Shown piece after piece: positions 1-24,432 of a stretch of DNA of 24,503 nucleotides; position 1 is the first letter of the stretch, and the number at the start of each line of letters is the position of its first letter. The notes beneath the pieces are model-generated. The model was given only the letters and a program-made list of their open reading frames with translations. It was not told the DNA's origin and did not search any database. Where the stretch lies: positions 1 through 24,503 of the IMG/VR virus record IMGVR_UViG_3300028810_000010, one strand, 5' to 3'. Source of the stretch: a virus. The translations under genes and the position numbers were made by a program.

Positions 1-108
1 CGTTGGCAGGCCACCCTCCCCCGTCGCGTCGAGAACGCAATCGACCGGTTCGGTTACCAGCGCGTGATCGCCAAGACTGTGGGACGCGACGCGATCGAGT
101 GGGCGTGA
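1..108 (+). CDS. C-terminal fragment of an unknown protein (partial)
   Basis: An open frame enters from the left edge and stops at TGA 106-108. The 35 visible residues run from RWQATLPRRVENAIDRFG to a C-terminal GRDAIEWA and look like a helical, basic-then-acidic protein tail. The family is not recognisable from this fragment. It is the gene immediately upstream of the first repeated promoter, whose -35 begins only 4 bases after the stop. Confidence 0.55.
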   Translation, partial: RWQATLPRRVENAIDRFGYQRVIAKTVGRDAIEWA

Positions 109-111
109 GGG

Positions 112-140
112 TTGCGTCGCCTGACGCGATGTGATAGAAT
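112..140 (+). promoter_or_regulatory. Promoter copy 1: extended -10, sigma70-like
   Basis: TTGCGT (112-117), exactly 17 bases, then TAGAAT (135-140) preceded by TGA, giving an extended -10 (TGATAGAAT). The block GGGTTGCGTCGC and the core ATGTGATA-AATTGT recur in promoter copy 2 (1154-1182). The transcript should start near 147, leaving a leader of about 25 nt ending in the GGGAAGGGAACCC element before the start at 172. Confidence 0.75.
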
Positions 141-155
141 TGTAGTAACACCAAG

Positions 156-168
156 GGGAAGGGAACCC
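156..168 (+). promoter_or_regulatory. SAS-like leader element 1 (ribosome-binding region)
   Basis: GGGAAGGGAACCC followed by GAG and the ATG at 172. It contains a purine-rich Shine-Dalgarno segment, but its flanking GGG and CCC are conserved beyond what ribosome binding needs. It matches 10 of 13 positions of the cluster K start-associated sequence GGGATAGGAGCCC (recalled from the literature). It fixes the start of the downstream gene. Confidence 0.75.
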
Positions 169-171
169 GAG

Positions 172-429
172 ATGCTCACCACGACCGAGATCCTGCGAGA
201 CCTGAACGTTTTCGTCATCGACGACAAGGACGCGCGCCTAGACGACACCACGGTGTGGATCCTCACCGCTGACACCTACGCGATCGGCCATGGGGACCTG
301 GACAACCGGACCGAGCTGGTCGGGGTATACGCCAGCCTCGACGCCCTGGCACGGGAGCTGCCGCTCAAGATGGCGCACCCCAGCTCGCGGATCTACAACC
401 CAATCGCGACGCAGGCAGTGGTGCAGTGA
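172..429 (+). CDS. Small unknown phage protein (85 aa)
   Basis: The protein begins MLTTTEILRDLNVFVIDD. The middle is a beta-rich stretch (TTVWILTADTYAIG), followed by ELVGVYASLDALARELPL. A strand followed by a GVYASLxA helix is common in small phage proteins of unknown function, so a compact alpha/beta domain is likely, but no role is known. The start is ATG 172 because the SAS-like element ends three bases earlier; an upstream in-frame TTG at 112 lies on the promoter -35. It is the first gene of a promoter-driven unit, and its stop overlaps the next ATG (TGATG). Confidence 0.75.
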   Translation: MLTTTEILRDLNVFVIDDKDARLDDTTVWILTADTYAIGHGDLDNRTELVGVYASLDALARELPLKMAHPSSRIYNPIATQAVVQ

Positions 430-560
430 TGTGGATCGTCATCATCATCATGGCCCTGCTCATCGGTTCGAGCAAGGGATGGTTCTGGGGCGTCCTGATC
501 ATGGCGGGCTGGCTGCTTTGCCTGCACGTCCGCAATCTCTACGTCCGCCGATACATGTGA
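429..560 (+). CDS. Small two-helix membrane protein (43 aa)
   Basis: ATG 429 shares one base with the stop of the upstream gene. The protein opens with a very hydrophobic segment (MWIVIIIMALLIG, residues 1-13), has a short SSKGWFWG turn, a second hydrophobic segment (residues 20-33), and a basic tail (HVRNLYVRRYM). The positive C-terminus suggests both ends face the cytoplasm. Its length and topology resemble small phage membrane proteins, but it lies far from the lysis genes and no function can be assigned. Support is the coupled start, uninterrupted coding and two clean helices. Confidence 0.6.
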   Translation: MWIVIIIMALLIGSSKGWFWGVLIMAGWLLCLHVRNLYVRRYM

Positions 561-564
561 CAGA

Positions 565-593
565 TTGTGCGGTTGACTCGGGTATGGTAGAAT
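565..593 (+). promoter_or_regulatory. Promoter copy 3: extended -10 (TGG-TAGAAT)
   Basis: TTGTGC (565-570), 17 bases, TAGAAT (588-593) with TGG immediately before the hexamer. The spacing equals that of promoter copies 1 and 2. A better-looking TTGACT at 573-578 is only 9 bases from the -10 and is not usable as its -35. The expected transcript start (about 600-601) falls on a GTG at 601, so initiation could be leaderless there. Confidence 0.6.
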
Positions 594-622
594 CGGCCCC
601 GTGAAAAGGGCACTCACCATAC

Positions 623-636
623 GGGAAGGGAGAGCC
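623..636 (+). promoter_or_regulatory. Divergent SAS-like leader element
   Basis: GGGAAGGGAGAGCC directly abuts GTG 637. The first nine bases match the other SAS-like elements; the CCC end is degenerate. It provides a strong Shine-Dalgarno for GTG 637 and is the main argument for that start over GTG 601. Confidence 0.6.
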
Positions 637-891
637 GTGGCATTCGCACGCACGCAAGGCATCGATTACGCCCCCACCTCAGTGGAGGACGTCCGAGACG
701 AGATCATCCAAGCCCGCGACGACGCAGTCCGAGTCCAAGACACGGAGTTCGCGCTGACACTGAGCTGGGTGATCGCCTACCTAGCCGAGTACGCCGACAT
801 GCTGTCCGACGACAGGATCGTCGAGGTACTGGAGGCCAGGCGTCGAGTCGAGGGATCAGCGGACGCCGTGACCATCCCATTCAACGTATGA
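637..891 (+). CDS. Small helical unknown protein (84 aa)
   Basis: The protein starts MAFARTQGIDYAPTSVEDVR and is almost entirely predicted helix, with alternating acidic/basic faces and a central hydrophobic helix (LTLSWVIAYLAEYADML). No family is recognised. The GTG 637 start is chosen for the SAS-like element just before it. An in-frame GTG at 601 would add 12 residues (MKRALTIREGRA) and sits exactly where the transcript is expected to begin, so a longer leaderless form is possible. The stop overlaps the next gene's ATG (ATGA at 888). Confidence 0.7.
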   Translation: MAFARTQGIDYAPTSVEDVRDEIIQARDDAVRVQDTEFALTLSWVIAYLAEYADMLSDDRIVEVLEARRRVEGSADAVTIPFNV

Positions 892-1133
892 GGACCGATA
901 AGGATATCGACCGCGACATCGCGGCGATCTTGGCAGAGAACGTCAGGAAATACCCGCCGGAGGAGGTGCAAGATGTCGTACCACCAGGACGCGATCCAAC
1001 GGGCGCTAGACTCACTGAGCGCCGCGTGCACGGAGACGGGGCAACTCAGCCAGTCGCAGCGTTTGGCAAGCGACAGCATGGACATCATGGCCCTCCACCT
1101 GATGCTCGTGATCATCCACCGACAGCTGGTTAG
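888..1133 (+). CDS. Possible small protein overlapping the next gene (81 aa)
   Basis: ATG 888 overlaps the preceding stop (ATGA), the normal coupling in this array. The first 28 residues (MRTDKDIDRDIAAILAENVR and onward) look like a genuine charged helix. From about 973 the frame runs under the better supported 973-1176 gene and becomes Pro/Gly/Arg/His-rich, as a shadow frame would. Either two genes overlap by 161 bases, or only the N-terminal part matters, or the two frames were once one gene. Function unknown. Confidence 0.35.
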   Translation: MRTDKDIDRDIAAILAENVRKYPPEEVQDVVPPGRDPTGARLTERRVHGDGATQPVAAFGKRQHGHHGPPPDARDHPPTAG

Positions 1134-1176
1134 GATCGCGGAAAGGCCAGGGGTTGCGTCGCGTCGCCCCATGTGA
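973..1176 (+). CDS. Small helical unknown protein (67 aa)
   Basis: A strong Shine-Dalgarno (GGAGGAGG, 958-965) precedes ATG 973. The sequence MSYHQDAIQRALDSLSAACT continues as amphipathic helices, including a hydrophobic stretch (DIMALHLMLVIIHRQLVRIA). No family is recognised. The last codons overlap promoter copy 2: the stop TGA (1174-1176) is also the TGN of its extended -10, so regulatory and coding signals are fused here. Confidence 0.65.
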   Translation: MSYHQDAIQRALDSLSAACTETGQLSQSQRLASDSMDIMALHLMLVIIHRQLVRIAERPGVASRRPM

Positions 1177-1182
1177 TATAAT
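1154..1182 (+). promoter_or_regulatory. Promoter copy 2: extended -10 (TGA-TATAAT)
   Basis: TTGCGT (1154-1159), 17 bases, consensus TATAAT (1177-1182) with a TGA extension. The 15-base core ATGTGATATAATTGT (1171-1185) occurs identically on the minus strand at 24400-24414. The expected start near 1189 gives a leader of about 45 nt. Confidence 0.8.
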
Positions 1183-1192
1183 TGTCATAGAC

Positions 1193-1231
1193 GGGGCGGC
1201 ACCAGCCCCCCGCAACCGGGGAAGGGAACCC
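1193..1231 (+). promoter_or_regulatory. GC-rich leader hairpins plus SAS-like element 2
   Basis: GGGAAGGGAACCC (1219-1231) is identical to element 1 and is followed by GAA and ATG 1235. Upstream lie two mutually exclusive short hairpins: GGGGC (1193-1197) with GCCCC (1205-1209), and CCCCG (1208-1212) with CGGGG (1217-1221). The second would pair with the start of the SAS-like element. The other promoter copies lack this insert. Confidence 0.55.
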
Positions 1232-1234
1232 GAA

Positions 1235-1927
1235 ATGCCACGCAGCACGAAGTCTCGCCGAGCACAGGCCCAGCCCGTCATCGTCGACGAGGTGCAGGAC
1301 GAGCAGGTCGAGCAGGCGCTAGACAACGCCGAGTCCGTCAACAACACCGAGATCGCCGCTGCCGACGAGCTGGTCCGTGAGACGCAGGAGGTCGAGACCC
1401 TCCACCCGGACGGCGGCCCGACCCCCGCACTGCACGCCCGTGACTTCAACTGGGACGCCATGCGCTGGATGCCGCCGAAGACCAACGGCTCGCGGCCCTG
1501 CCTCTGCAACCGCCTGCGCGGCCACGAGTGCGATCTCACCACGAAGAGCCGGTTCGCCATCGGCCACGATGCCCGCTTCAAGGGCAAGCTGCAGACGGCC
1601 TTCCGTGCCGGAGTGCAACTGCCCTGGACCTTCGAGACGGGCGACACGCTCACCGACACCGAGGGTACCAGCCGGGTGCTGAGCGAGCCCACGGAGCAGA
1701 TGCTGGCAGCCGACCAGATCGCCCGGATGGTGGCACCCAAGCTCCTGCCCCACGTGACCCACGAGTCGCGGGGCGCCAGGCTCCAGATTCTGGACGCAGC
1801 GGCTGGGACAGCCGTCCCGCAGACCGCCGTGGATCACCCGAAGGCGGACGAGGACCTCACCGACGCCGATCTGGCCGACGTCGTGGACGACGCGGAAGGC
1901 GTGGACGCCCAGTTCGTCGAGAACTGA
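1235..1927 (+). CDS. Unknown protein with CxC...GHxC...GHDARxK motif (230 aa)
   Basis: The N-terminus (1-60) is basic then strongly acidic and probably disordered. The centre has RPCLCNRLRGHEC (Cys 89, 91, 99; His 97) followed by SRFAIGHDARFKGKL (105-119). A Cys-rich stretch followed by F-x-x-GHDA-x-x-K recurs in hypothetical proteins of actinobacterial phages and suggests a small zinc-binding nucleic-acid domain; that role is inference. The C-terminus (200-230) is very acidic. ATG 1235 follows the SAS-like element by three bases. It is the longest gene of the array, the first of its transcription unit, and overlaps the next start by one base. Confidence 0.8.
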   Translation: MPRSTKSRRAQAQPVIVDEVQDEQVEQALDNAESVNNTEIAAADELVRETQEVETLHPDGGPTPALHARDFNWDAMRWMPPKTNGSRPCLCNRLRGHECDLTTKSRFAIGHDARFKGKLQTAFRAGVQLPWTFETGDTLTDTEGTSRVLSEPTEQMLAADQIARMVAPKLLPHVTHESRGARLQILDAAAGTAVPQTAVDHPKADEDLTDADLADVVDDAEGVDAQFVEN

Positions 1928-2205
1928 TGGGGCTGATCGATCGGGTGCTTGGCCTGGATGAACCGGCCAAGTGCCCGATGCACCCCCGGGCTAAGATGCC
2001 CTGCCGTCAGTGCCAGAGGATGAAGGAGCAGGCACGCGGCTTCCAACCGGAGACTCGGACCAAATACGGTCCGCGAGGCGGCAAGAAGATCACCCGCACA
2101 GGTAACCGGGTCGACGGAGCTGGGAACGTCTGGTGCGGCGCCTGTGACTGCCGCATCATGAACAACCGATGCACGAACGCGCGTTGCTCGACAAGGAGCA
2201 GATGA
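1927..2205 (+). CDS. Small Cys-rich putative zinc-ribbon protein (92 aa)
   Basis: Two Cys clusters are visible: C16-x2-H19...C26-x2-C29 near the N-terminus, and C70-x2-C73-x-C75...C82...C87 at the C-terminus, separated by a basic, Gly-rich middle. This suggests two small metal-binding knuckles flanking a nucleic-acid-contacting segment, but no family is recognised. ATG 1927 overlaps the upstream stop by one base. The stop (2203-2205) overlaps the next start. Confidence 0.7.
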   Translation: MGLIDRVLGLDEPAKCPMHPRAKMPCRQCQRMKEQARGFQPETRTKYGPRGGKKITRTGNRVDGAGNVWCGACDCRIMNNRCTNARCSTRSR

Positions 2206-2882
2206 TGACACGGTCATGGTGGCGGGCACCAGAGGATCCGTCCGAGCGCGATCGACGCCCTTGGCTGATGGCGCACGGCATCACGCCGATGAACCGCTCC
2301 ACCCGGCTGTGGGACATGGAGATCACAGCCCACCTGCTTCCGCACAGGACCGAACGTGTCGGCTCCCTGGACATGGCTCGGACCGCGCTTAACCAGCAGC
2401 GAGCCGGACACAAAATCGACCCGATTAAGTGGCAGGGTAGCCAGAGTATGGCGACCGGTCGCGCGTACGACTGGTGCTATTGCATCGAGGCGGTCGATAC
2501 CGAGGCGGACGGGCGGGTCTCCTGCATCTGCCAGTGCTGTGACTGCAAGCCGCCCGGCAAGGGCGCGACGCAGGTCCATTGGCGCAAGCGCAAGCACGCG
2601 CACGACATCCGGGTCGGCATGATCCGGCACCAGCAGGAGAACAACACTCGCTGGATCCGGCTCGGCCGATTCATCGAGAGCCTGGTCTGGGACTACGAGC
2701 ACGGATATTGGTTCTGGCAACGTTGGGGCTGGTTCGCTGACGACAGCCCGGTCTCCCAGGGTGGCGACACCCTGCACGACGACGAAGTCTACGAAGAGCC
2801 CGATACACCGCACGAGCCGATCAACTGGTACAAGAAGAAGTCTGACCCCGAGGAGGACGCGGAAAGTAATGGTAGGCCCTAG
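2205..2882 (+). CDS. Unknown Trp- and Cys-rich protein (225 aa)
   Basis: ATG 2205 lies 6 bases after AAGGAG (2193-2198); ATG 2202 is directly adjacent and equally in frame. The protein is rich in Trp, with a Cys patch at 91-114 (CYC, then CICQCCDC) followed by KPPGKG and a basic segment (HWRKRKHAH), and an aromatic stretch (YEHGYWFWQRWGWF, 165-178). The tail is acidic. The Cys/Lys region could bind metal or nucleic acid. No homologous family is recognised. Confidence 0.7.
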   Translation: MTRSWWRAPEDPSERDRRPWLMAHGITPMNRSTRLWDMEITAHLLPHRTERVGSLDMARTALNQQRAGHKIDPIKWQGSQSMATGRAYDWCYCIEAVDTEADGRVSCICQCCDCKPPGKGATQVHWRKRKHAHDIRVGMIRHQQENNTRWIRLGRFIESLVWDYEHGYWFWQRWGWFADDSPVSQGGDTLHDDEVYEEPDTPHEPINWYKKKSDPEEDAESNGRP

Positions 2883-3231
2883 GAGATCCAGCACACTGGA
2901 AGAGCTGACCGACGAGCAGGTCTGGTGCCATTCATTCGGGCACAACTGGAGCGACCCGCCCGTGGTCGAGACCAACCTCCGGGTTGGGGTGGTGGTCCAG
3001 CTGCGACAGGATCACCACTGCGACAACGGGTGCGGATGCACTAAGGGACACTACGTCCACCCGCCATCGGGTCGCCGCTGGGGATGGAAGCGTCGGGCCG
3101 GTGAGGGGTACGGCATTGACGGTGGGTTCTCCCGCGAAGACTTCGTCGCCGAATGGCTAAAGCGAGTCATGCACGATCGGGCAAGCAAACCGGTACCGCT
3201 ACCTTACCAGCGTCGGAGGCGGAACGCATGA
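2869..3231 (+). CDS. Small putative zinc-binding protein (120 aa)
   Basis: ATG 2869 follows a GAGGAGG/GGAAAG purine stretch and overlaps the upstream gene by 14 bases. The protein has WCHSFGHNW (Cys 20, His 25), then DHHCDNGCGCTKGH (Cys 51, 55, 57; His 61) and a basic C-terminus. A WC-x-x-FGH-x-W start followed by a Cys cluster is common in small actinophage proteins of unknown function and looks like a split zinc knuckle. The stop overlaps the next ATG. Confidence 0.7.
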   Translation: MVGPRRSSTLEELTDEQVWCHSFGHNWSDPPVVETNLRVGVVVQLRQDHHCDNGCGCTKGHYVHPPSGRRWGWKRRAGEGYGIDGGFSREDFVAEWLKRVMHDRASKPVPLPYQRRRRNA

Positions 3232-3476
3232 TGCAGCGGCTGGCTGATCGGACGGCCATCATCCGCGAGATGCGCGTCGGCCCAGCGATCATCGCAGACG
3301 AGCTATTCGAGTTGCGAGCCGGACGGGACCGCGCCGAGCGCCTTATGGCAGGCGAACCGCCGTCGACCAATCTTGGCGCCGGAATCCAACTCGGTGCCCG
3401 GATCATCCTCGGTCGAGTACACGACCCGGAAGTCTGGGTCCGAGCGCTAACCAATCTAGGAGACGATCTACCGTGA
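3228..3476 (+). CDS. Small helical unknown protein (82 aa)
   Basis: GGAGG (3215-3219) is 8 bases before ATG 3228, which overlaps the upstream stop (ATGA). The protein begins MMQRLADRTAIIREMRVG and is largely charged helix (DELFELRAGRDRAERLMAG), followed by a Gly-rich hydrophobic stretch. It could be a small coiled-coil oligomer. No family is recognised. The stop overlaps the GTG of the next gene. Confidence 0.65.
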   Translation: MMQRLADRTAIIREMRVGPAIIADELFELRAGRDRAERLMAGEPPSTNLGAGIQLGARIILGRVHDPEVWVRALTNLGDDLP

Positions 3477-3772
3477 GCTGGGACTGGGACCCATTCCGTC
3501 ACACCGAATTCGGCCGCACCGCCAACGATGAAGTGGTGATCTACTGCCACAACTGTGGCATGGAGGACAACATCGGCCCAGTCGAGGGGATGCTGGTCTC
3601 GGAGCTGATCGACAAGTGGCTCCAGCACGTGCGGCGATCGCACCGGATGACGCCCGAGGACACGCGGACCTACAGCGCGCCCGGCAAGCGATTCGTCCCG
3701 GGTCCGCCGCTAGACACGCACATCATCAAGCTCGACGGCGATCGGACCGAGGTGTGGGGTCATTATGCCTGA
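3473..3772 (+). CDS. Small C2H2-type putative zinc-finger protein (99 aa)
   Basis: GTG 3473 overlaps the previous stop (GTGA), with AGGAG 10 bases upstream. The central motif is YCHNCGM (Cys 25, Cys 28), a helix (LVSELIDKWLQ), then HVRRSH (His 52, His 57). That is C-x2-C, about 23 residues, H-x4-H, consistent with a C2H2 finger. The helix before the His pair and the surrounding basic residues suggest nucleic-acid binding, which is inference. Confidence 0.7.
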   Translation: MSWDWDPFRHTEFGRTANDEVVIYCHNCGMEDNIGPVEGMLVSELIDKWLQHVRRSHRMTPEDTRTYSAPGKRFVPGPPLDTHIIKLDGDRTEVWGHYA

Positions 3773-4082
3773 TGAAGACCCCGACGCCCAGATGAAGGCC
3801 GATTTGGTCATGCACACCATGAACGAGATTGCCCGTGAAAAAACCAGTATGGCGGTGGTCCACGCCTACATGCACATGGCAAGCCACGCCATTCACACTG
3901 CAATCAACACCATCTACGCCGAGCTGGAAGCCGAGGGCGAGCCAACCGAGGTGTGCGGCGTGCTCTCCGGCTACTGGAATGAGTTCGCTCGGGCTATGAT
4001 GCACTTCCACCTAGAAGTACCCTGCAACCACGAGGAGCCCCCGAATGGCGACACGCTCGGTCAAGATCACTGTAACGATTGA
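3765..4082 (+). CDS. Small helical, Met/His-rich unknown protein (105 aa)
   Basis: ATG 3765 overlaps the upstream gene by 8 bases. The protein is mostly helix with many Met and His residues (MHTMNEIAREK, VVHAYMHMASHAIHTAIN), an acidic middle and a Cys/His-containing end (VPCNHEEPP...DHCND). Those residues could bind a metal, but no motif is recognised. It overlaps the following gene by 38 bases, the longest well-supported overlap in this part of the array. Confidence 0.6.
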   Translation: MPDEDPDAQMKADLVMHTMNEIAREKTSMAVVHAYMHMASHAIHTAINTIYAELEAEGEPTEVCGVLSGYWNEFARAMMHFHLEVPCNHEEPPNGDTLGQDHCND

Positions 4083-4335
4083 GGACGGTGCCCACGGCGA
4101 CCACTTGGGCGAGGCCAGCGCGATCGTCAGTCTGCGGACGGACCTGCTGACCGGCATATTCACCGACAGCGCGCAGGACTGGTACTCGTCGATGGTCAGC
4201 TCGCTGGGCACCCTGGCTTACCGGGACGCGTTCCCGCGATCGGGCCGAGAGCTACCGGTGCAGACCCGCAGCGTATACCAGCCGTTGGACGTCGCGGCTG
4301 CACTCGCCGACATAGATAGGCTCGAAGGGCAGTGA
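4045..4335 (+). CDS. Unknown small protein (96 aa)
   Basis: GAGGAG precedes ATG 4045. The protein opens with an alternating strand (MATRSVKITVTIEDGAHG) followed by GEASAIVSLRTDLLTGIFTDSAQDW and a C-terminal helix (LDVAAALADIDRLEG). A compact alpha/beta fold is likely. No family is recognised. The stop overlaps the GTG of the next membrane protein. Confidence 0.65.
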   Translation: MATRSVKITVTIEDGAHGDHLGEASAIVSLRTDLLTGIFTDSAQDWYSSMVSSLGTLAYRDAFPRSGRELPVQTRSVYQPLDVAAALADIDRLEGQ

Positions 4336-4499
4336 CCACCGCCCGTCTGCTGATGTTCGTCTCCGCCACACTGGCCTTTTGTACGGTCTATTTCGTGATG
4401 GAGGGCGGAATCAAGGCGGTGTTCTGGCTGGGCATGATGGTCTCGATTGGTGCATCCGGGCTCATCGGGTTCATGGTGGGGAGAGCGAGCAAAAGATGA
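4332..4499 (+). CDS. Small two-helix membrane protein (55 aa)
   Basis: GTG 4332 overlaps the upstream stop (GTGA). Two hydrophobic segments (about 5-23 and 29-49) are separated by a short MEGGIKA turn, and the protein ends in RASKR. The topology is probably both ends in. It resembles 429-560 and 6126-6332 in size and layout but not in sequence. The stop overlaps the next ATG. Role unknown. Confidence 0.6.
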   Translation: MTTARLLMFVSATLAFCTVYFVMEGGIKAVFWLGMMVSIGASGLIGFMVGRASKR

Positions 4500-4783
4500 T
4501 CATCAACGCAATCAACTACGCGGGGTTGGTCGGACACTACGTCCGGATGGAACGACTGTCTACGGTCGAGGAGTTGGCCGCGACCCAGGAGCAGACGGTC
4601 GGCATGGAGGCCAACGTCGCCGCAGTTATGGACGACGGCAACGACGTTATCGTGATCGGCGACTACGGCGAAACCTGGCGAATCACCGGGCACGACGCCA
4701 TGGACTGGACGTTCACGATTTGGGCCAGCGAAGAGGCGGCCGAGAAATCGCGCCTCCGGCCGAGAGAGGTCAAGAAGCAATGA
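4496..4783 (+). CDS. Unknown small acidic protein (95 aa)
   Basis: ATG 4496 overlaps the preceding stop. The protein has an N-terminal helix with Tyr and Met (NAINYAGLVGHYVRMERL), an acidic middle and an alternating strand region (NDVIVIGDYGETWRITGHD), then DWTFTIWASEEAAEKS and a basic tail. It is probably a small soluble alpha/beta protein. No family is recognised. The stop overlaps the next start (ATGA). Confidence 0.65.
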   Translation: MIINAINYAGLVGHYVRMERLSTVEELAATQEQTVGMEANVAAVMDDGNDVIVIGDYGETWRITGHDAMDWTFTIWASEEAAEKSRLRPREVKKQ

Positions 4784-4983
4784 GTCGTCCCCATCCCTTC
4801 GCCGCAGTCACCATCGTGGTTGTCCCGCTTGACGAGGACGGCCGACCGGTGCCGTCGCAGACTGTAACCGTGGTCGGCATCGGTGGGGTGCAGCTCGAAG
4901 CCGATGACGCCCTCATCAAGTGGCGGCTGGACCGAGTGGCCGATCGCCGGTTCACCGTCATCGGACTAACGGAGTGGATATGA
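4780..4983 (+). CDS. Unknown small beta-rich protein (67 aa)
   Basis: ATG 4780 overlaps the upstream stop. The sequence alternates hydrophobic residues as in a beta sandwich or barrel (AAVTIVVVPLDEDGRPVP, QTVTVVGIGGVQLE) and ends RRFTVIGLTEWI. No catalytic or metal-binding residues stand out. Function unknown. It is coupled to the next gene by ATGA. Confidence 0.6.
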   Translation: MSRPHPFAAVTIVVVPLDEDGRPVPSQTVTVVGIGGVQLEADDALIKWRLDRVADRRFTVIGLTEWI

Positions 4984-5222
4984 CCGCGCCGAGACGTCGC
5001 CCTGGATTCGATCCGGGCGGCTGGGAGTCGGGTGGATGGCCGATCTACGGCCACAAGCGCTACCGACTCTGGGTTCCTCCTGGAACGAGCCTCAACACCC
5101 GATGGGGAATCCTGATTCGAGAGGACGTCAGCGCGCGGGGACAGCTGGCGATCCTGAACGCGATTCCGCTGTTTGACTTGAACAGCTCGGGCCACATCGT
5201 GATGTATCGGCGTCAGGCATGA
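4980..5222 (+). CDS. Unknown small basic protein (80 aa)
   Basis: ATG 4980 overlaps the preceding stop. The N-terminus is Arg/Gly/Trp-rich (RRRPGFDPGGWESGGWPIYG), followed by YRLWVPPGTS and a beta-rich C-terminal half ending in SSGHIVMYRRQA. No family is recognised. The stop overlaps the next start by ATGA. Confidence 0.6.
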   Translation: MTAPRRRPGFDPGGWESGGWPIYGHKRYRLWVPPGTSLNTRWGILIREDVSARGQLAILNAIPLFDLNSSGHIVMYRRQA

Positions 5223-5392
5223 CGCCCGAGGAGGAGGCCTGGCTCGAATCGCTGCCCCGAGTGACTCTCGATCAACGCATCTATTACTGGGAATGGCGTC
5301 ACGAGCTGGAGCGACCGAGGCCCTCCGAGAGGGTGCGACCGTACGTCGTGTGGCGTAAGGAAGAGCACATTGTGGGCTGGTTCGAGGAATGA
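5219..5392 (+). CDS. Small charged unknown protein (57 aa)
   Basis: ATG 5219 overlaps the previous stop (ATGA). The protein is highly charged and rich in Trp, Glu and Arg (MTPEEEAWLESLPRVTLDQR, then YYWEWRHELERPRPSERVRP). Its stop TGA (5390-5392) doubles as the TGN extension of the next promoter, the same fusion seen at 1174-1176. Function unknown. Confidence 0.6.
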   Translation: MTPEEEAWLESLPRVTLDQRIYYWEWRHELERPRPSERVRPYVVWRKEEHIVGWFEE

Positions 5393-5398
5393 TATACT
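5370..5398 (+). promoter_or_regulatory. Promoter copy 4: extended -10 (TGA-TATACT)
   Basis: TTGTGG (5370-5375), 17 bases, TATACT (5393-5398) with the TGA extension supplied by the upstream gene's stop codon. The whole -35 lies inside the upstream coding region. The expected start near 5405 gives a leader of about 22 nt containing the SAS-like element. Confidence 0.7.
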
Positions 5399-5410
5399 GG
5401 GGTATAGAGA

Positions 5411-5423
5411 GGGAAGGGACCCC
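5411..5423 (+). promoter_or_regulatory. SAS-like leader element (copy at 5411)
   Basis: GGGAAGGGACCCC, then AAG and ATG 5427. It is the same length and has the same flanking GGG/CCC as the elements at 156 and 1219, with a one-base difference in the core. It sets the downstream start. Confidence 0.7.
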
Positions 5424-5426
5424 AAG

Positions 5427-5729
5427 ATGAGGATCTGCACAGTGAACGTGGCCGGGTCGGTCTGCGGCCAGGAGGTCGCAGGCGAGATTCACTGGGAGGG
5501 CGAGGACTACACCGACGAGGCGTGCGCGAGCCACCTGTACCTGTTCGAGAAGATTGCGGGCCACGCCGTGACGCGCTACCCGACCTGCGCCATCGAGGTG
5601 CTCGACCCGTACAGCCGCGTCGACCTGGTCGCCTGTGGCGAGGTGGCCAAGACCAAGGCGCAGTGGGACGAGCGAGGGGCGATCTGGATCTGCTCCGGTC
5701 ACCTCATGGTGCTGGCGGAGGCTAACTGA
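5427..5729 (+). CDS. Putative tandem zinc-ribbon protein (100 aa)
   Basis: The protein appears to be an internal duplication. Repeat 1 has C4...C13-G-x-x-V-A...E-A-C33-x-x-H36-L; repeat 2 has C54...C70-G-E-V-A...I-W-I-C89-x-x-H92-L. Each repeat therefore offers Cys-Cys-Cys-His for one zinc. Such CCCH ribbons often bind nucleic acid or mediate protein contacts, but no named family is recognised. ATG 5427 is set by the SAS-like element ending three bases upstream. It leads the last transcription unit before the terminator. Confidence 0.75.
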   Translation: MRICTVNVAGSVCGQEVAGEIHWEGEDYTDEACASHLYLFEKIAGHAVTRYPTCAIEVLDPYSRVDLVACGEVAKTKAQWDERGAIWICSGHLMVLAEAN

Positions 5730-5956
5730 TGAGCACATTCTGGGCCAGTTTCCTCATCGGCCTGGCGGTCGGTCTGGCCCTGGCCTACTGCACCAATCCG
5801 CTGGAGCTATTCCGCGCTCCACGGCGCAGGCCACACGTCCATCGGGGCGATAGCTGGGACGGGCACTACGAGCACTGTCGATGCGGTGCCTCGGCCGGAG
5901 ATCGAGTCGGCAGCCACGGGCTGCGCTGCGTCCAATTCGAGGAGTGGGGCCAGTGA
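5729..5956 (+). CDS. Single-pass membrane protein with Cys/His motif (75 aa)
   Basis: ATG 5729 overlaps the upstream stop by one base. An N-terminal hydrophobic helix (about 4-21) is followed by a basic segment (FRAPRRRPHVHRG) and a Cys/His cluster, HYEHCRCGA...GSHGLRC (Cys 50, 52, 67; His 46, 49, 63). A membrane anchor followed by C-x-C-G also occurs in the leftward gene 23626-23823. The basic residues after the helix suggest the Cys/His domain is cytoplasmic. Function unknown. Confidence 0.65.
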   Translation: MSTFWASFLIGLAVGLALAYCTNPLELFRAPRRRPHVHRGDSWDGHYEHCRCGASAGDRVGSHGLRCVQFEEWGQ

Positions 5957-6129
5957 CGGTGGCGGAGCTGCGCAAGATCCTGGAGACTGCGCCCGACGAC
6001 GCGGACGTCGTGTTTGGTGAGACCGGATACGACGTCGAGTACGCCTACACCGCGATGCACTGGATCGGCATCGCCACCCCCACACCGCGTCAGGTACCGG
6101 TGCTGAAACTGGAGGGACTGAGCACATGA
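5953..6129 (+). CDS. Small TVAEL-type phage protein (58 aa)
   Basis: The protein begins MTVAELRKILETAPDDADVV and then GETGYDVEYAYTAMHW. The TVAEL-x-x-x-L-x-x-x-P-x-D-A-x-V-x-F opening is widespread in small phage and prophage proteins of unknown function, apparently a compact alpha/beta domain. GTG 5953 overlaps the previous stop (GTGA) and is preceded by GGAG; GTG 5959 is an alternative. It is coupled to the next gene by ATGA. Confidence 0.7.
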   Translation: MTVAELRKILETAPDDADVVFGETGYDVEYAYTAMHWIGIATPTPRQVPVLKLEGLST

Positions 6130-6332
6130 AGAACCTCGCGATCGAGATTCCGCGCATCCCACCCCAGGTGTGGTTCTGGTTTCGACAGGTGCTGGTCGTG
6201 CTCGGCGCGGCGCTGGGCATCGCCGGACTGATCTGGCTGATCGGGGCGATCCACATGAACGCCGGGTCGTGGCTTGGGGTGTTCGGGCTGCTGATCTCGA
6301 TGGTGATGCTGATTGAGGGGTTCCTCCCATGA
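6126..6332 (+). CDS. Two-helix membrane protein (68 aa)
   Basis: ATG 6126 overlaps the preceding stop. After a short N-terminus (MKNLAIEIPRIPPQ) there are two long hydrophobic segments, about 16-44 and 48-66, joined by HMNAGS, with almost no tail after the second. The layout is holin-like, but its location far from the endolysin argues against a primary lysis role. Function unknown. Confidence 0.65.
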   Translation: MKNLAIEIPRIPPQVWFWFRQVLVVLGAALGIAGLIWLIGAIHMNAGSWLGVFGLLISMVMLIEGFLP

Positions 6333-6622
6333 GCGCGCCCGAGCCCCAGCCGGTCGAGTGGCGACCGGGGGATCCGCCAATCCTGGTGTTTGCGGGAAGC
6401 TACGCCCAAGCCGAGTACTGGGCGCACTACGTCGCCAAGCTGCCGAACAGTCGACAGGCGTTCCGCTACATGCGCTACGCTCATGATCTGCGTGGGTATC
6501 GCGGGAACAGGGCCGTAATGGTCGGCTCGTTCTGGCATCGGAAGGGCGACGAGATCAGCGACATGCTGGATTACGCCAAGCTGATGAATCTGACCTGGCT
6601 CCCCGACTACGACGTCCGCTAA
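6329..6622 (+). CDS. Unknown phage protein of the FAGSYAQAEYWA type (97 aa)
   Basis: ATG 6329 overlaps the previous stop. After a Pro-rich start there is PPILVFAGSYAQAEYWAHYV, then AFRYMRYAHDLRGYRGNRAVMVGSFWHR and an acidic C-terminal helix. A strand followed by an AxxW helix and a later R-Y-x-x-x-x-x-x-L-R-G segment recurs in small actinophage proteins of unknown function and suggests a Rossmann-like fold. It is the last gene before the intrinsic terminator. Confidence 0.7.
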   Translation: MSAPEPQPVEWRPGDPPILVFAGSYAQAEYWAHYVAKLPNSRQAFRYMRYAHDLRGYRGNRAVMVGSFWHRKGDEISDMLDYAKLMNLTWLPDYDVR

Positions 6623-6636
6623 GCCTCCCGCACCGG

Positions 6637-6670
6637 ACCCCCAACCAATGGTTGGGGGTTCGACTTTTTT
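6637..6670 (+). terminator. Intrinsic terminator ending the small-gene array
   Basis: A perfect 10-base-pair stem, ACCCCCAACC (6637-6646) with GGTTGGGGGT (6650-6659), loop AAT, followed by CGAC and six T (6665-6670). It lies 15 bases after the last stop of the array and just upstream of the terminase promoter, separating the two transcription units. Confidence 0.9.
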
Positions 6671-6699
6671 AGGCCATCGCGCCAGCCCTGGCAGGCCAT
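6671..6699 (+). repeat. Direct repeat AGGCCAT upstream of the terminase promoter
   Basis: AGGCCAT occurs at 6671-6677 and 6693-6699, 22 bases apart (about two helical turns), each followed by a GC/CG-rich step. A small inverted repeat GCCAG-CC-CTGGC (6681-6692) sits between them. The spacing and the position just 5' of the -35 are suitable for a dimeric regulator, but the motif is short. Confidence 0.35.
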
Positions 6700-6716
6700 G
6701 CGATTTGGGGGCGCAC

Positions 6717-6746
6717 TTGCGCCGCTGCCAACCCGTCTGGTAGACT
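6717..6746 (+). promoter_or_regulatory. Extended -10 promoter for the structural genes
   Basis: TTGCGC (6717-6722), 18 bases, TAGACT (6741-6746) preceded by TGG. The -35 is half of a perfect inverted repeat GCGCA-CT-TGCGC (6711-6722), a possible operator. Seven bases separate the -10 from the GTG at 6754, the same geometry as 588-601, so the transcript should begin at or next to the start codon. Confidence 0.65.
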
Positions 6747-6753
6747 GGGTCTC

Positions 6754-7221
6754 GTGTCCGAGTACCCGAGCCGCGAACTGGAAATGCTCGACCAGATCGC
6801 CAAGGATCGCGAAGCGCTCGAACTACGCTTGCGACACATGGGTTACCAGGATATTGCTGATATCCAGGGCGTTACCGTCCCTACCGTCCGGAAGCGCATC
6901 AGGCGCGCGATCCAGGCCGGAATCCCCAAGGAGACGCGTGATCAGGCACGGACCCTTGAAGTCACCCGGATCGACCGTCTCCAGCGCTTTAATGAACTGG
7001 TTATTCAGTCGGCCGCCACGACACTCGCTGAGAAGCTCGCAGCCCAACAGGCTTGGTTGGCTGCTTCAAAGGTACGAGCTGCCCTCCTCGGTCTCAACAT
7101 GCCAGCTGAGCTGGAAGTCAAGTACTCCGGCGCACTGGACCATGAGATCGAGGCTCTGATGGTCGAGATGGGCGGTCAACCCGCCGTGATAGACGGCGAG
7201 GTAGTCGACGCCGATGACTGA
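6754..7221 (+). CDS. terS: Terminase small subunit
   Basis: A 155-aa protein with a clear N-terminal helix-turn-helix (LRHMGYQDIADIQGVTVPTV, about residues 27-46, then RKRIRRAIQ), a central helical region rich in Arg, Gln and Ala, and a C-terminal acidic tail, as expected for a phage TerS that recognises the packaging site and recruits the large subunit. It sits directly before the large terminase with an 8-base overlap. GTG 6754 has no Shine-Dalgarno (GGGTCTC precedes it) but lies where transcription should start, pointing to leaderless translation; the next in-frame ATG (6784) has no better site. Assignment rests on the HTH, size and context. Confidence 0.85.
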   Translation: MSEYPSRELEMLDQIAKDREALELRLRHMGYQDIADIQGVTVPTVRKRIRRAIQAGIPKETRDQARTLEVTRIDRLQRFNELVIQSAATTLAEKLAAQQAWLAASKVRAALLGLNMPAELEVKYSGALDHEIEALMVEMGGQPAVIDGEVVDADD

Positions 7222-8644
7222 CCCGCCCCGCAATTGGCGCCAAGGCTACGGTCCTGGCGACGGCGAGTGGCGGGCTTGGGAGCCGGAGCGCAAGCAGCAT
7301 TTGCGCGACCGGCTGGCTCAGGAGATCGAGAAGCGGCGCACGATGTGGCGCTGCGACATGCCGTTCTGCGATGGGCGACCCCATGAGGGGTGGGTCGCGC
7401 CGCACGCGCGGTATACACAGCTTGCCCCGCCCGACACCCCCAGAACTGTGCGTGATCCGCGTCAGGCCGCGCCGGTACAAGTCACACTTCCATGGTTGGA
7501 GTGGCTGATCATGGCGGGTCGAGGGTGGGGCAAGACCCGTACTGGAGCCGAGTTCATTCGTGAGCAGGTGACGAAGCTAGGCCCACCGGGTCGAATCGCG
7601 CTCATCGGGCGTACGGCGGCCGATGTGCGTGATGTCATGATCCTAGGCGAGTCGGGATTGCTGTCGGTATTCCCCGCTTGGGAGCGACCGGTTCACTACC
7701 CGAGTAAGCGTGCCGTGCACTTCAAGAATGGCGCGGTTGCGTTCTGCTACAGCTCGGATGAGCCAGACCAGCTCCGAGGCCCGCAGCATCACGCGGCCTG
7801 GATCGACGAGATGGCGACTTTCAACCATCTTGAGGACGTGTTCACCAACTACCGGCTTGGTCTGCGGCTGGGCTCGGACCCCCGTTGCGTGATCACGACC
7901 ACCCCACGCCCTCGGCCGGAGATCCGGGAGCTGAGGTACTCACCGACCACAGTCATCACCAGTGGCCGGACGTATGATAATCTCCACAATCTGGCTCCTG
8001 TCTTCCAAGAGACGGTCCTGCGCAAGTACGAGGGCTCGCGACTTGGAAGGCAGGAGCTGGAGGGCGAGCTCCTCGAAGATGTTGAGGGCGCGCTTTGGAC
8101 TAACGATCTCATTGAAGAGCACCGGGCCGACATCAAGATGGTCGAGCCGTTCATGTCTCAGATGGAGATCGTGGTCGCGATTGACCCAGCAGTGACCTAC
8201 GGCGGCGACGAGACTGGCATTATCGTCGCAGCCAGGCTTGACCACGAGGGATTCGTCCTCGCGGACATGTCGGGTCACTACACCCCGCACGGATGGGCTC
8301 AAGCTGCGATCCAGGCGGCAGCCGCCTGGGGCGCAAGCTACATTGTCGCCGAGACGAACAACGGCGGCGAGATGGTCCGCACTACTCTAGAATCCGAGCG
8401 TCTGCCGCAAGGAGTGAGATTCAGACCCGTCACCGCGAGCCGAGGTAAACGACTGCGAGCCGAGCCGGTGAGCACCCTGTACGAACAGGGACTCGTTCAC
8501 CACGTCGGGATCCACCACACGCTGGAGGATCAAATGACGACGTGGACACCAGCCGACCGCTTGTCCCCCGACCGCCTCGATGCGCTGGTATGGGCCATTT
8601 CTCACCTATTCTTCCGGAGGCGCGGGATGGCGGATGTCGCGTAG
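7214..8644 (+). CDS. terL: Terminase large subunit (ATPase and nuclease)
   Basis: A 476-aa motor that packages DNA into the prohead. Walker A is AGRGWGKTRTG (101-111), Walker B is AAWIDE (194-199), and the coupling motif is CVITTTPRP (225-233). The C-terminal RNase H-like nuclease has D324 in VAIDPAVT, E380 in IVAETNNGG and an acidic pair in SPDRLDALVW (451-460). An N-terminal CDMPFCDGRPHEGW segment (Cys 47, Cys 52, His 57) resembles a zinc knuckle seen in actinophage terminases. ATG 7214 overlaps terS by 8 bases. Full length with all key residues present. Confidence 0.95.
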   Translation: MTDPPRNWRQGYGPGDGEWRAWEPERKQHLRDRLAQEIEKRRTMWRCDMPFCDGRPHEGWVAPHARYTQLAPPDTPRTVRDPRQAAPVQVTLPWLEWLIMAGRGWGKTRTGAEFIREQVTKLGPPGRIALIGRTAADVRDVMILGESGLLSVFPAWERPVHYPSKRAVHFKNGAVAFCYSSDEPDQLRGPQHHAAWIDEMATFNHLEDVFTNYRLGLRLGSDPRCVITTTPRPRPEIRELRYSPTTVITSGRTYDNLHNLAPVFQETVLRKYEGSRLGRQELEGELLEDVEGALWTNDLIEEHRADIKMVEPFMSQMEIVVAIDPAVTYGGDETGIIVAARLDHEGFVLADMSGHYTPHGWAQAAIQAAAAWGASYIVAETNNGGEMVRTTLESERLPQGVRFRPVTASRGKRLRAEPVSTLYEQGLVHHVGIHHTLEDQMTTWTPADRLSPDRLDALVWAISHLFFRRRGMADVA

Positions 8645-18450: not shown

Positions 18451-19556
18451 CGGGACCGAACGAAGGCATCGATACCACATTGATTGTGCGGAGCATGCAA
18501 ACCCGCGCGATCATCGCCACCCTACCCTGGTCGACTCTCAGCTATGAGGCGCGAATCAACAGCGCGGGTCAGATGTCCGCCACCATTCCCATCACAGAAG
18601 GCGGAATGACGGACATCCTACTTCCGGGCCGGGTGATGATCGGGGTGTTGCGCGGATCGATGCCTGCGTGGAGCGGCATCCTCTGGAAGCGCCAAATGAA
18701 TCCGTCCGGCACAATGACCATCGGCTGCGAGGAGGTCCTCAGCTACTGGGACCGGAGGCGCATCCGCCAGACGATCATTTTCAACCAGATCGATCAGGCG
18801 ATGATTTTGTCGACGCTGTTCACGCTGCCGCAACAGGATGCCTACGGTAACCTAGGTGTGACTATGGTCGGCAACGTGACTACGGGCGTACGCCGGGATC
18901 GCTCCTATTATGGTTACGACCGCAAGAGCTACGGTGAAATGATCCGCGCGCTATGCGGGGTCATCGACGGGCCAGACATTAAGAACGATCCCGTGTTTGT
19001 TAACGGGGTGTGGTCCGACCAGATGCGGGTCGGCTACCCTCGGCTCGGGCGCACCCTTGACCAAGGCCACATCACGTTCATCGTCGGCGTGAACTGCCAG
19101 ATCGAGTACTGGCAGGAGGACGCAGCCGCTGCAACCACCGTGATCGACTGTCTGGGCACCAACTCGTCCGATGCAACCAACCCGCTGATCTCCACCTACG
19201 AAGCTAGATTCATGTATGGTGCAGGTTGGATGCGGATGGAGGACGCGCTCAGCTTCACAGACGTATCGGTCCAAGCGACCCTCAACGAGAAGGCAAAAGC
19301 CGAGCAAGCGGCCCGATCAGGGGTCATCCTGACCATCACCATCAGCGTGCCCGACGCCGATGAGGATCCGGTGTTGGGCTCGTATGGTGTGGGCGACGAC
19401 TGTCGGCTGATTGTGCCGCCCAGCCCAGCCTTTGTCGAGGGCTACGACATCCAGGTACGCATCGCCTCCATTGCGGTTGACGCAGGCCAGCGGGACGAAG
19501 TCAAGGTACAGATGGTACCCGCTCTGATTGACGGAACGGTGATTATTCCGATATGA
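18447..19556 (+). CDS. Minor tail protein, hub-like (Gp37-like)
   Basis: A 369-aa protein, ATGA-coupled to the Dit-like gene. Early residues LPWSTLSYEARINSAGQMSA, TIPITEGGMTDILLPGRVM and GILWKRQMNPSGTMTIGCEE resemble the first domains of tail hub proteins in the ReqiPepy6 Gp37-like group, which form the tail tip trimer. The later IDCLGTNSSDATNPLISTYE and C-terminal beta-rich part (DDCRLIVPPSPAFVEGYDIQ) fit a T4 gp27-like fold. No peptidase motif is seen. Confidence 0.75.
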   Translation: MTGPNEGIDTTLIVRSMQTRAIIATLPWSTLSYEARINSAGQMSATIPITEGGMTDILLPGRVMIGVLRGSMPAWSGILWKRQMNPSGTMTIGCEEVLSYWDRRRIRQTIIFNQIDQAMILSTLFTLPQQDAYGNLGVTMVGNVTTGVRRDRSYYGYDRKSYGEMIRALCGVIDGPDIKNDPVFVNGVWSDQMRVGYPRLGRTLDQGHITFIVGVNCQIEYWQEDAAAATTVIDCLGTNSSDATNPLISTYEARFMYGAGWMRMEDALSFTDVSVQATLNEKAKAEQAARSGVILTITISVPDADEDPVLGSYGVGDDCRLIVPPSPAFVEGYDIQVRIASIAVDAGQRDEVKVQMVPALIDGTVIIPI

Positions 19557-20737
19557 CCCGCGTAGCGCGCACGGTGGACCTATCCGAGTGGCTGACCCGG
19601 ACCGAGGAGCGGTTATCCACGGCCGAACGTCGCCTTGCCGCAGCTCAGCGTCCCGCCCAGGGCACAACCGCACTGGTCTACGGGCCAAATCTGCTACCCA
19701 ACCCGGGCTACGAGGACAAGCGCGTAGACGGTTGGGCGTTCCCGGAGAAGGGCATTCTGGTTACCGGCCCCGATGCAATCTCCGGCATCTGGTCTTATCA
19801 GATGAGCCACGCGGCCTCCACACCGGTCGTTAACCGAGAGAAACGATCCTTCGACATCACCCCGTACGCCTGGCGCAACTACAAGGGCGACAATACCTTC
19901 AAGCCAGCGCTCGGCTCCGATGGCGTCGACCACGCGTTCCAGGGTCAGTTTGACGCGGTAGACGGCAACACCCGCTCCTATCTGTGGTGGGATCCGGCTG
20001 GGTTCGCTGACGCGGTAAACTCCATCGCGGGCGACTGGATCTCGTTTGACCTGCTAATCTTCTGGGAACACTGGTTCTGGTCCGAGGGTGGCACCTCCGT
20101 CATCGGTGCGCACACTGTGGCCACACCCCCGGCCTCAGGCGCGGTTGGGCCGCTAACCAACTCATTCCCCGACCTAGTCCGCTTCACCTGGCCAGGCCGC
20201 TATTTGATGGGCTCCTGCAACCTGATCAATATCGGCGGCATTGCCGACCGGATCCGGGACGGCACGTTCCGAGGGCTGGAGTTCGGGCCCGGTCCGACCA
20301 CTAACCCGACTTACTACGGCTACGCTCGACCTTACGACGCTCGATTGCGTTGCACTTATTGGAAGACCGTCAGCATCACGCAGGTTGGGCTGTCATCCGA
20401 GGTTAGGTCATACGGCATGGGCGTGTCGGGCGGCAACGTCAAGTGGAACGCGCAGGTGACCACCAAGTGCACCGTCCCGGCAGTGGCCAAGCTCGGCGTC
20501 TGGTGGCGCAACGCAGGTGGCACCATCACTGACGTCGACGTCGCTACTGTGAACCTGGGCGCGAACGCGACGACTCCGCTTAGTGCGACCACCCCCGCCG
20601 CATTCTCCGACGCCGCAGTGGACCTCGGGGTCTACTTAAAGATCACGGGCGCCCCACCGTCGGACGGATCGGGTACTACCATCCCGTGGAACTACATCGT
20701 AGACGACTGGACGCTCCGACAGCAGATCGCAGGATGA
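19553..20737 (+). CDS. Minor tail protein with carbohydrate-binding-like domain
   Basis: A 394-aa protein coupled by ATGA. Residues 8-33 form a coiled coil (SEWLTRTEERLSTAERRLAA), typical of trimeric tail tip proteins. Then GPNLLPNPGYEDKRVDGWAF opens a jelly-roll of the type found in carbohydrate-binding modules (NLLPNPGxE...WxF), and another beta domain with TTKCTVPAVAKLGVWWRN follows. The C-terminus WNYIVDDWTLRQQI is the usual end of such a module. It is a candidate for binding cell-envelope glycans. Confidence 0.75.
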   Translation: MTRVARTVDLSEWLTRTEERLSTAERRLAAAQRPAQGTTALVYGPNLLPNPGYEDKRVDGWAFPEKGILVTGPDAISGIWSYQMSHAASTPVVNREKRSFDITPYAWRNYKGDNTFKPALGSDGVDHAFQGQFDAVDGNTRSYLWWDPAGFADAVNSIAGDWISFDLLIFWEHWFWSEGGTSVIGAHTVATPPASGAVGPLTNSFPDLVRFTWPGRYLMGSCNLINIGGIADRIRDGTFRGLEFGPGPTTNPTYYGYARPYDARLRCTYWKTVSITQVGLSSEVRSYGMGVSGGNVKWNAQVTTKCTVPAVAKLGVWWRNAGGTITDVDVATVNLGANATTPLSATTPAAFSDAAVDLGVYLKITGAPPSDGSGTTIPWNYIVDDWTLRQQIAG

Positions 20738-24372: not shown

Positions 24373-24387
24373 GGGGATTCCCTTCCC
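24373..24387 (-). promoter_or_regulatory. SAS-like leader element on the minus strand
   Basis: Read on the minus strand: GGGAAGGGAATCCCC, then GA and ATG 24370. It has the same GGGAAGGGA core and C-run as the plus-strand copies at 156, 1219 and 5411, with two extra bases. It shows that the leftward operon shares the regulatory module of the small-gene array. Confidence 0.72.
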
Positions 24388-24402: not shown

Positions 24403-24432
24403 ATTATATCACATCCAACACACTCCCCTCAA
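24403..24432 (-). promoter_or_regulatory. Promoter of the leftward operon: extended -10 (TGA-TATAAT)
   Basis: On the minus strand, consensus TATAAT (24408-24403) with the TGA extension and TTGAGG (24432-24427) 18 bases upstream. The 15-mer ATGTGATATAATTGT is identical to 1171-1185. The expected start near 24396 leaves about 25 nt of leader carrying the SAS-like element. Confidence 0.75.

Follow-up and report, generated by a model that had tools for sequence, protein, structure and literature searches.

Start-associated sequences (SAS) and extended start-associated sequences (ESAS) were defined in PMC3203893, sigma-A-like promoters have been placed inside the ESAS of Adephagia (PMC11373665), and a survey covers 188 cluster K phages (PMC12699233). 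In these sources, a cluster K SAS has at most two mismatches to GGGATAGGAGCCC, typically lies 3-7 bases from a start codon, belongs to a non-structural gene and is present in 11-19 copies per genome; its function was left open in 2011, and the papers of 2024-2025 call it ill-defined or in need of experiments. For cluster EF Microbacterium phages, motifs of AnnaSerena and LordBart are described in PMC7302621 and PMC12859693. Here we analyzed a 24,503-base virus record, IMGVR_UViG_3300028810_000010, a single contig referred to as a whole as the window, in which five genes (genes 1 to 5) are each preceded by an extended -10 promoter and a SAS-like leader. Our best reading of these sequences is that they represent a third SAS-type system beside those of the cluster K mycobacteriophages and the cluster EF Microbacterium phages.

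The original prediction had described a SAS-like leader behind extended -10 promoters with 17-18 base spacers at five sites, and all five promoters are present (spacers of 17, 17, 17, 17 and 18 bases), each with a G two bases past the -10 hexamer. On the plus strand, promoter 1 (112-140; TTGCGT, TGA-TAGAAT; first bases of the -35 and -10 at 112 and 135) is followed by GGGAAGGGAACCC at 156-168, 3 bases ahead of the ATG at 172 of an 85-residue gene (172-429). Promoter 2 (565-593; TTGTGC, TGG-TAGAAT; 565 and 588) leads to the 9-mer GGGAAGGGA at 623-631, then GAGCC, and to the GTG at 637 of an 84-residue gene ending at 891. Promoter 3 (1154-1182; TTGCGT, TGA-TATAAT; 1154 and 1177) precedes a second copy of GGGAAGGGAACCC (1219-1231) and the ATG at 1235 of a 230-residue gene ending at 1927, while promoter 4 (5370-5398; TTGTGG, TGA-TATACT; 5370 and 5393) precedes GGGAAGGGACCCC (5411-5423) and the ATG at 5427 of a 100-residue gene ending at 5729. 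Promoter 5 lies on the minus strand (24403-24432; TTGAGG, TGA-TATAAT; 24432 and 24408), as do its leader, GGGAAGGGAATCC followed by CC (24375-24387), and its 163-residue gene (24370-23879, with the ATG at 24370). An exact GGGAAGGGAMCCC thus begins at 156, 1219 and 5411; the minus-strand copy differs from it by one mismatch, and GGGAAGGGAGAGC at 623 by three, only the 9-mer being retained. The leaders do lie near their start codons, as had been proposed, albeit not within 0-3 bases in every case, as the 13-mer ends 3, 1, 3, 3 and 4 bases ahead. At sites 3 and 4 the TGA stop of an upstream open reading frame (ORF; 973-1176 and 5219-5392) doubles as the TGN of the extended -10 (1174-1176 and 5390-5392).

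Motif counts were compared with those in 500 dinucleotide shuffles of the window. The 9-mer GGGAAGGGA occurs five times over both strands against a shuffle mean of 0.236, which disposes of the alternative that the motifs are as frequent at random; an extended -10 followed by the 9-mer also occurs five times, against a mean of 0.002, and TGTGATAKAATTGT three times, against none in the shuffles. Each of the five copies is preceded by the extended -10 promoter (TTGNNN-17/18-TGNTAKAMT-N-G) and followed, after 5-8 bases, by a start codon; the 9-mer is absent from the 35 other ORF starts of the window that were inspected. Four of the sites precede a terminator-like hairpin at 6634-6662 and the fifth lies beyond the endolysin gene, which puts all of them outside the structural genes, as in cluster K.

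Promoter and leader recur in relatives, a wider scan of which the original prediction had proposed. Scans of viral contigs revealed further phages carrying the block, and several of them are tied to the window phage by their terminase: in a terminase search, 27 of the 80 loci kept (136 found) are, over their best segment, 71-100% identical to that of the window. Two 40-kb records, G003 and G005, contain eight and five copies of the 9-mer, respectively, and across these records and the window 17 of 18 copies are accompanied by promoter and start codon, the exception being G003:7335 on the minus strand. One more promoter-linked copy in the same three records has one mismatch, so that promoter-linked copies number five in the 24.5-kb window and seven and five to six in the 40-kb fragments. 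Site 1 recurs in L017 and L018, promoter 2 is retained in G005, and a 12-mer of LordBart, GGGAAGGAACCC, is found exactly at L011:3868. Among the 20 loci of the first scan, nine (L010, L011, L012, L015, L017, L018, L019, L021 and L022) have the full promoter pattern, L005 and L016 a -10-like hexamer alone, and the other nine neither. A second scan gave 50 new loci, of which 42 had a G+C content below 0.55 and were excluded as probable chance; sites were admitted at a G+C content of at least 0.58 (promoter alignment, folds and permutation) or at least 0.55 (33-site count of CCC, below), with near-duplicates merged. Host or prophage copies were also considered, using the whole-module pattern in genome contigs; the 21 matches came from unrelated taxa (Clostridia, Bacteroidota, Chloroflexota, Planctomycetota, an archaeon, one Coriobacteriia and others) and were judged from their titles to be chance.

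The promoter architecture is conserved along with the block. A TTG, which was not in the search pattern, stands upstream in all 24 non-redundant sites, with a spacer of 17-18 bases in 23 and 16 in L016; the search pattern itself specified the -10, and partly also the extended -10 and the G. Apart from the -35, the -10 region and the discriminator, no other strongly conserved block was seen over these 24 sites. A search for TTG, spacer and extended -10 in which the G was not required returned 6 promoters in the window, 14 in G003 and 13 in G005, where 60 shuffles of each record averaged 0.15, 0.15 and 0.23; the G is present in all 33. Sorted by leader, 18 of these promoters lead to the SAS block (5, 7 and 6), 11 are leaderless-like, three have an ordinary Shine-Dalgarno (SD) sequence and one fits none of these types; leaderless-like here denotes a start codon 4-8 bases past the -10 by a crude script rule, and at least two such promoters also have a later SD sequence and are perhaps misfiled. 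The sixth promoter of the window (6717-6746, plus strand; TTGCGC, 18-base spacer, TGG-TAGACT, N-G) lies past the terminator-like hairpin and is without SAS, and the GTG that follows 7 bases later, at 6754, is predicted to be the leaderless start of the first gene of the structural operon. As the same promoter serves leaderless-like and ordinary-SD genes, promoter and leader are separable; the proposal of a repeated promoter and SAS-like leader at dispersed genes therefore stands, while its treatment of the two as one single module does not. On our reading the promoter is the general promoter of the phage, and SAS is one of at least three leader types (SAS, leaderless-like and ordinary SD).

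Sigma-A extended -10 promoters with leaderless or short-leader mRNAs are known in actinobacteria and their phages. The promoters described here share with this actinobacterial class the TGN before the -10 hexamer, the 17-18 base spacer and a leaderless start 6-7 bases past the -10, and differ from it in that 18 of the 33 lead to a SAS block; they are likely recognized by a host sigma-A-type polymerase. Leaderless phage promoters are described in PMC4351075. Opposite site 5, and past the right end of the window, the relative G012 has a divergent promoter (L220:473; TTGCGG-17-TGGTATACT), whose leader is free of the block in G012 and carries a one-mismatch block in G005.

Counted from six bases past the -10, the predicted leaders of the window are 22-46 bases long, and those of the family as a whole 16-46; over the 24 sites, 4 to 36 bases separate the -10 from the SAS, and this spacer can vary between orthologues that retain the block. 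The GGAAGGGA core of the block is predicted to pair with the 3' end of 16S rRNA, giving, with an assumed sequence of that end, a duplex of -10.1 kcal/mol for GGGAAGGGAACCC with two G-U pairs. A CCC is found no more than 9 bases from the start codon at three of the four plus-strand SAS starts versus 4 of the 35 other ORF starts. In a scan that fixed the promoter core and GGAAGGGA and left the first G and the CCC free, 25 distinct sites were found; all nine in high-GC contigs have a start codon and eight of them have both G and CCC, which supports a GGG/CCC frame around the SD core, while the ninth, L063, has neither. The site 3 orthologues have C-G versus T-A just beyond the stem of the block. 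In the 16 low-GC sites, taken as chance, the G is present in one and the CCC in none of those having a start codon.

At site 3, a stem-loop that is predicted to be stable occupies positions 1192-1212 (plus strand), past the predicted 5' end and ahead of the SAS. In L011, G003 and L098 its counterparts have altered sequences that still pair, including G-C to C-G exchanges (three to five sequences); this comparison was made from per-sequence folds, as MAFFT misaligned the leader stems, and gives no pair count. Similar stems occur in the leaders of other genes of G003 and L010. Stable 5' stem-loops can protect the 5' end of an mRNA, and the site 3-type stem-loop probably acts in this way. In the orthologous leader of L098, the promoter-like sequence and 5' stem are retained and an ordinary AAGGAG takes the SAS position, which indicates that stem and block are separable and supports a role for the block as a ribosome-binding site.

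We compared these features with the two described SAS systems. Like cluster K, the window has a 13-base GGG-SD-CCC block a few bases before several starts of non-structural genes, an element whose function is unsolved. The cluster K consensus that the original prediction had given, GGGATAGGAGCCC, is correct according to the literature, and so is the 10 of 13 likeness of GGGAAGGGAACCC to it; with 3 of 13 positions different, GGGAAGGGAACCC lies outside the two-mismatch limit of cluster K. The gaps of 3, 3, 3 and 4 bases at sites 1, 3, 4 and 5 are within the distance typical of cluster K and the 1-base gap at site 2 is below it. The ESAS class of cluster K has a counterpart here, as judged by sequence, in a sigma-A-like promoter with a 17-18 base spacer upstream of the SAS. 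Coupling appears closer in the present sequences, in which 17 of 18 exact 9-mers are promoter-linked versus 5 of 12 exact SAS in a stretch of Anaya as judged by one promoter pattern (TTGAC in 7 of 12). The 17-bp inverted repeat of the ESAS was not detected: 14 sites average 8.9 of 17 against 8.9 in shuffles, with 13 at shuffle level and one, G003 16119, above it, while the positive control, the seven Anaya SAS with TTGAC, scores 13.9 against 9.1.

The closest published motif found is that of cluster EF, GGGAAAGGACCCC (for which we allowed at most one mismatch), matching the window at 12 of 13 positions at 5411 and 11 of 13 at 156 and 1219, in phages of a different lineage. In AnnaSerena all nine pattern-matched SAS have a -10-like hexamer at a distance of 8-50 bases upstream, versus 2% of random positions, and a G follows the hexamer in 7 of 9 versus 1%, which makes it probable that the EF 'ESAS' also represents a promoter; the word 'promoter' is absent from the main text of PMC7302621. 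As here, the inverted-repeat score of AnnaSerena is near shuffle level, and a clear stem-loop just before the block is seen in some leaders (3 of 9 folded). Promoters of the window type (TTG-16/18-extended -10) number 0 in AnnaSerena and none were found in the Anaya stretch, and window proteins compared with AnnaSerena and the Anaya right arm gave no local match better than E 0.035. Together, the lack of a protein match and of such promoters leans to separate acquisition over descent, with a 13-base element being too short to settle the matter. The GGGAAGGGAACCC string did not occur in the open-licence PMC texts retrieved by an exact-motif search.

Taken together, our analysis suggests that these genes probably have self-contained starts, in which a sigma-A-type promoter leads to a short leader with a specialized SD block, sometimes behind a 5' stem-loop. 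The host housekeeping polymerase would recognize the TTG-type -35, the 17-18 base spacer and the extended -10, together with the favourable G that follows the -10; the transcript would begin with a short leader ending in GGGAAGGGA-N(0-2)-CCC. This block would act as a specialized ribosome-binding site, its GGAAGGGA core, which lies 5-8 bases ahead of the start codon, pairing with the 16S end. The GGG and CCC on either side, which are usually kept and add no rRNA pairing, might form a tiny hairpin that displays the SD core in its loop, or might be recognized by a factor; a factor reading GGG/CCC is speculative, and the mini-hairpin is a lead rather than a result. For some genes, such as that at site 3, the stable stem-loop near the 5' end of the leader would shield the mRNA.

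Several observations weigh against parts of this proposal. With three mismatches allowed, the 13-mer occurs 19 times in the window against 18.2 expected, which is chance level and confines the signal to near-exact copies in their context. A strict sigma-70 scan of positions 1-7300 reported none of these promoters; it is blind to them because their -35 agrees mainly at TTG, and with so weak a -35 the extended -10 must carry them. For matches to the downstream proteins that reach the start codon (nine further matches stop short of it), 21 distinct upstream regions were compared, and 14 of them, including the five of the window, contain the 9-mer; the seven regions without it belong to orthologues of gene 2 (one), gene 3 (one, L098), gene 4 (four, three of them short matches) and gene 5 (one, L063, in which GGAAGGGA is present but the first G and the CCC are missing). 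The CCC is lost at 623 in the window and elsewhere, being absent from 7 of 33 sites and present in 26, a count biased by the loci having mostly been fetched with patterns containing CCC or CC, for which reason the 25-site scan is the fairer one. The mini-hairpin folds weakly, the bare block giving -1.7 to -3.9 kcal/mol and a block with a fourth G -5.3, and its covariation is marginal, with 87 of 2000 permutations of the downstream parts (27 sites), in which relatedness was retained, folding equally well. In plus-strand stretches of five cluster K phages the loop, ATAGGAG, is the same at all 84 near-start sites, while the stem deviates at 13 of them; a position-for-position compensation is seen at just one of these 13 (Pixie), and pairing of flanking bases in 11 of 71, which makes the hairpin idea less likely. 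Finally, the SAS core falls short of the strongest SD sequence, so that something beyond ribosome pairing may conserve the block.

The most serious competitor to a specialized SD block is that the leaders are plain strong ribosome-binding sites whose likeness to SAS reflects convergence on good initiation, a possibility that we regard as real and clearly the less probable one. The pairing of the core with the 16S end at normal spacing and the plain SD sequence of the L098 orthologue would suit it, but the other ORF starts of the window vary upstream and none has the block, 17 of the three records' 18 promoter-linked sites carry an exact 9-mer even though one mismatch was allowed, and the first G and CCC were kept in 8 of 9 family sites without having been asked for. 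It is unlikely that a phage-encoded regulator instead binds a shared operator spanning the -10 region, with the leader as part of its site, and so co-regulates these genes. The original prediction had taken the 15-mer ATGTGATATAATTGT, which is indeed identical at 1171-1185 and, on the other strand, 24414-24400, as a hint of such a regulator, and the near-invariant leader as well as the single site of 14 (G003 16119) above shuffles in the inverted-repeat test could be cited in its favour. In relatives, two SAS promoters, those of L017:6548 and L021:12484, also have a CRP-like palindrome, TGTGACCAATATCACA, directly upstream of the -35. However, the 15-mer of sites 3 and 5 has the look of a strong extended -10 promoter, whose conserved positions it fits, so no separate regulator is needed; the promoter core also serves non-SAS genes (15 of 33), no extra conserved block accompanies it over the 24 sites, its distance to the SAS is variable, the inverted-repeat average equals that of shuffles and TGTGA-N6-TCACA is absent from the window.

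Duplication of a promoter-gene cassette from one ancestral gene and its upstream region would also account for the identical 15-mer and for a 28-residue match between proteins 2 and 3 (E 0.005 when the five proteins were compared), yet this was the one short match among the five downstream proteins, the remaining pairs giving E values of 0.25 or worse, and spacers and flanks differ between the sites. Without clear kinship among the proteins, the leader seems to have been attached separately to different genes, and we consider duplication very improbable. Chance matches, to which the loose 13-mer count might be held to point, are refuted by the shuffles and the relatives and can be given practically no weight.

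The window has a GC content of 63% and encodes terminase, portal, protease, capsid, tail and endolysin proteins. Megablast of the window against 50,697 phage records gave no match, leaving it without a nucleotide relative among named phages. The endolysin matched 828 records, at least 824 of which are actinobacterial phages going by name; terminase matches are mixed, with a Microcystis phage at the top, Arthrobacter phages next and Vibrio as the most frequent name (64 of 205), and those of the capsid are likewise of mixed origin. We infer from these genes that the window derives from an actinobacterial siphophage. Searches of the window found no tRNA and no match to known RNA families. At E 0.01, neither PHROG nor Pfam gave a family for any of the five downstream genes (gene 2 being queried from a start 36 bases upstream), and tblastn of their proteins against the 50,697 records gave no match at E limits of 1e-5 and 0.01. 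The hairpin and T run at 6634-6662 (plus strand), which could close the early region, has the longest stem of three terminator-like sites in positions 1-7300, where 3.1 were expected.

A gene for PurZ (succino-amino-deoxyadenylate synthase) is present in G005 (L183:8573-9610, minus strand), scoring 324.7 versus a curated cut-off of 300, with homologues 87% identical in G012 (19098-20123) and 72% identical in G003 (38639-39658); PurZ was thus found in 3 of the 13 records searched, many of which are short fragments. As G012, besides PurZ, carries gene 5 of the window at 100%, the lineage of the window probably has 2-aminoadenine DNA. A DpoZ-like polymerase scoring under its cut-off lies near purZ, as does, in G005, an adenylosuccinate-lyase-like protein (L183:7189-8283, minus strand) that is above the cut-off for Pfam Lyase_1 and below that of the purB model; phages with Z-genomes usually depend on the host lyase enzyme. 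A tie between the Z-genome and SAS was considered and does not hold in Arthrobacter phage Wayne, which encodes a PurA-like synthetase and has three such promoters and, by eye, no SAS-type block before a start among four loose matches.

A further idea, which we put forward as doubtful, is that the SAS blocks of the three phage groups are one RNA element, a tiny GGG/CCC hairpin presenting a fixed SD loop to a host or phage factor by which dispersed early genes would be co-translated, here in a lineage predicted to use 2-aminoadenine DNA and with 33 promoters sharing the extended -10 (asked for) and the G (unasked). The promoter-coupled SAS, the exchange of SAS for an SD sequence, the leaderless-like genes on the same promoter and the variable placement of CCC offer comparisons that are apparently undescribed for cluster K. 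They are best read as belonging to a variant of the SAS system that is nearly always promoter-coupled, is without the ESAS repeat and occurs in a PurZ-encoding phage lineage.

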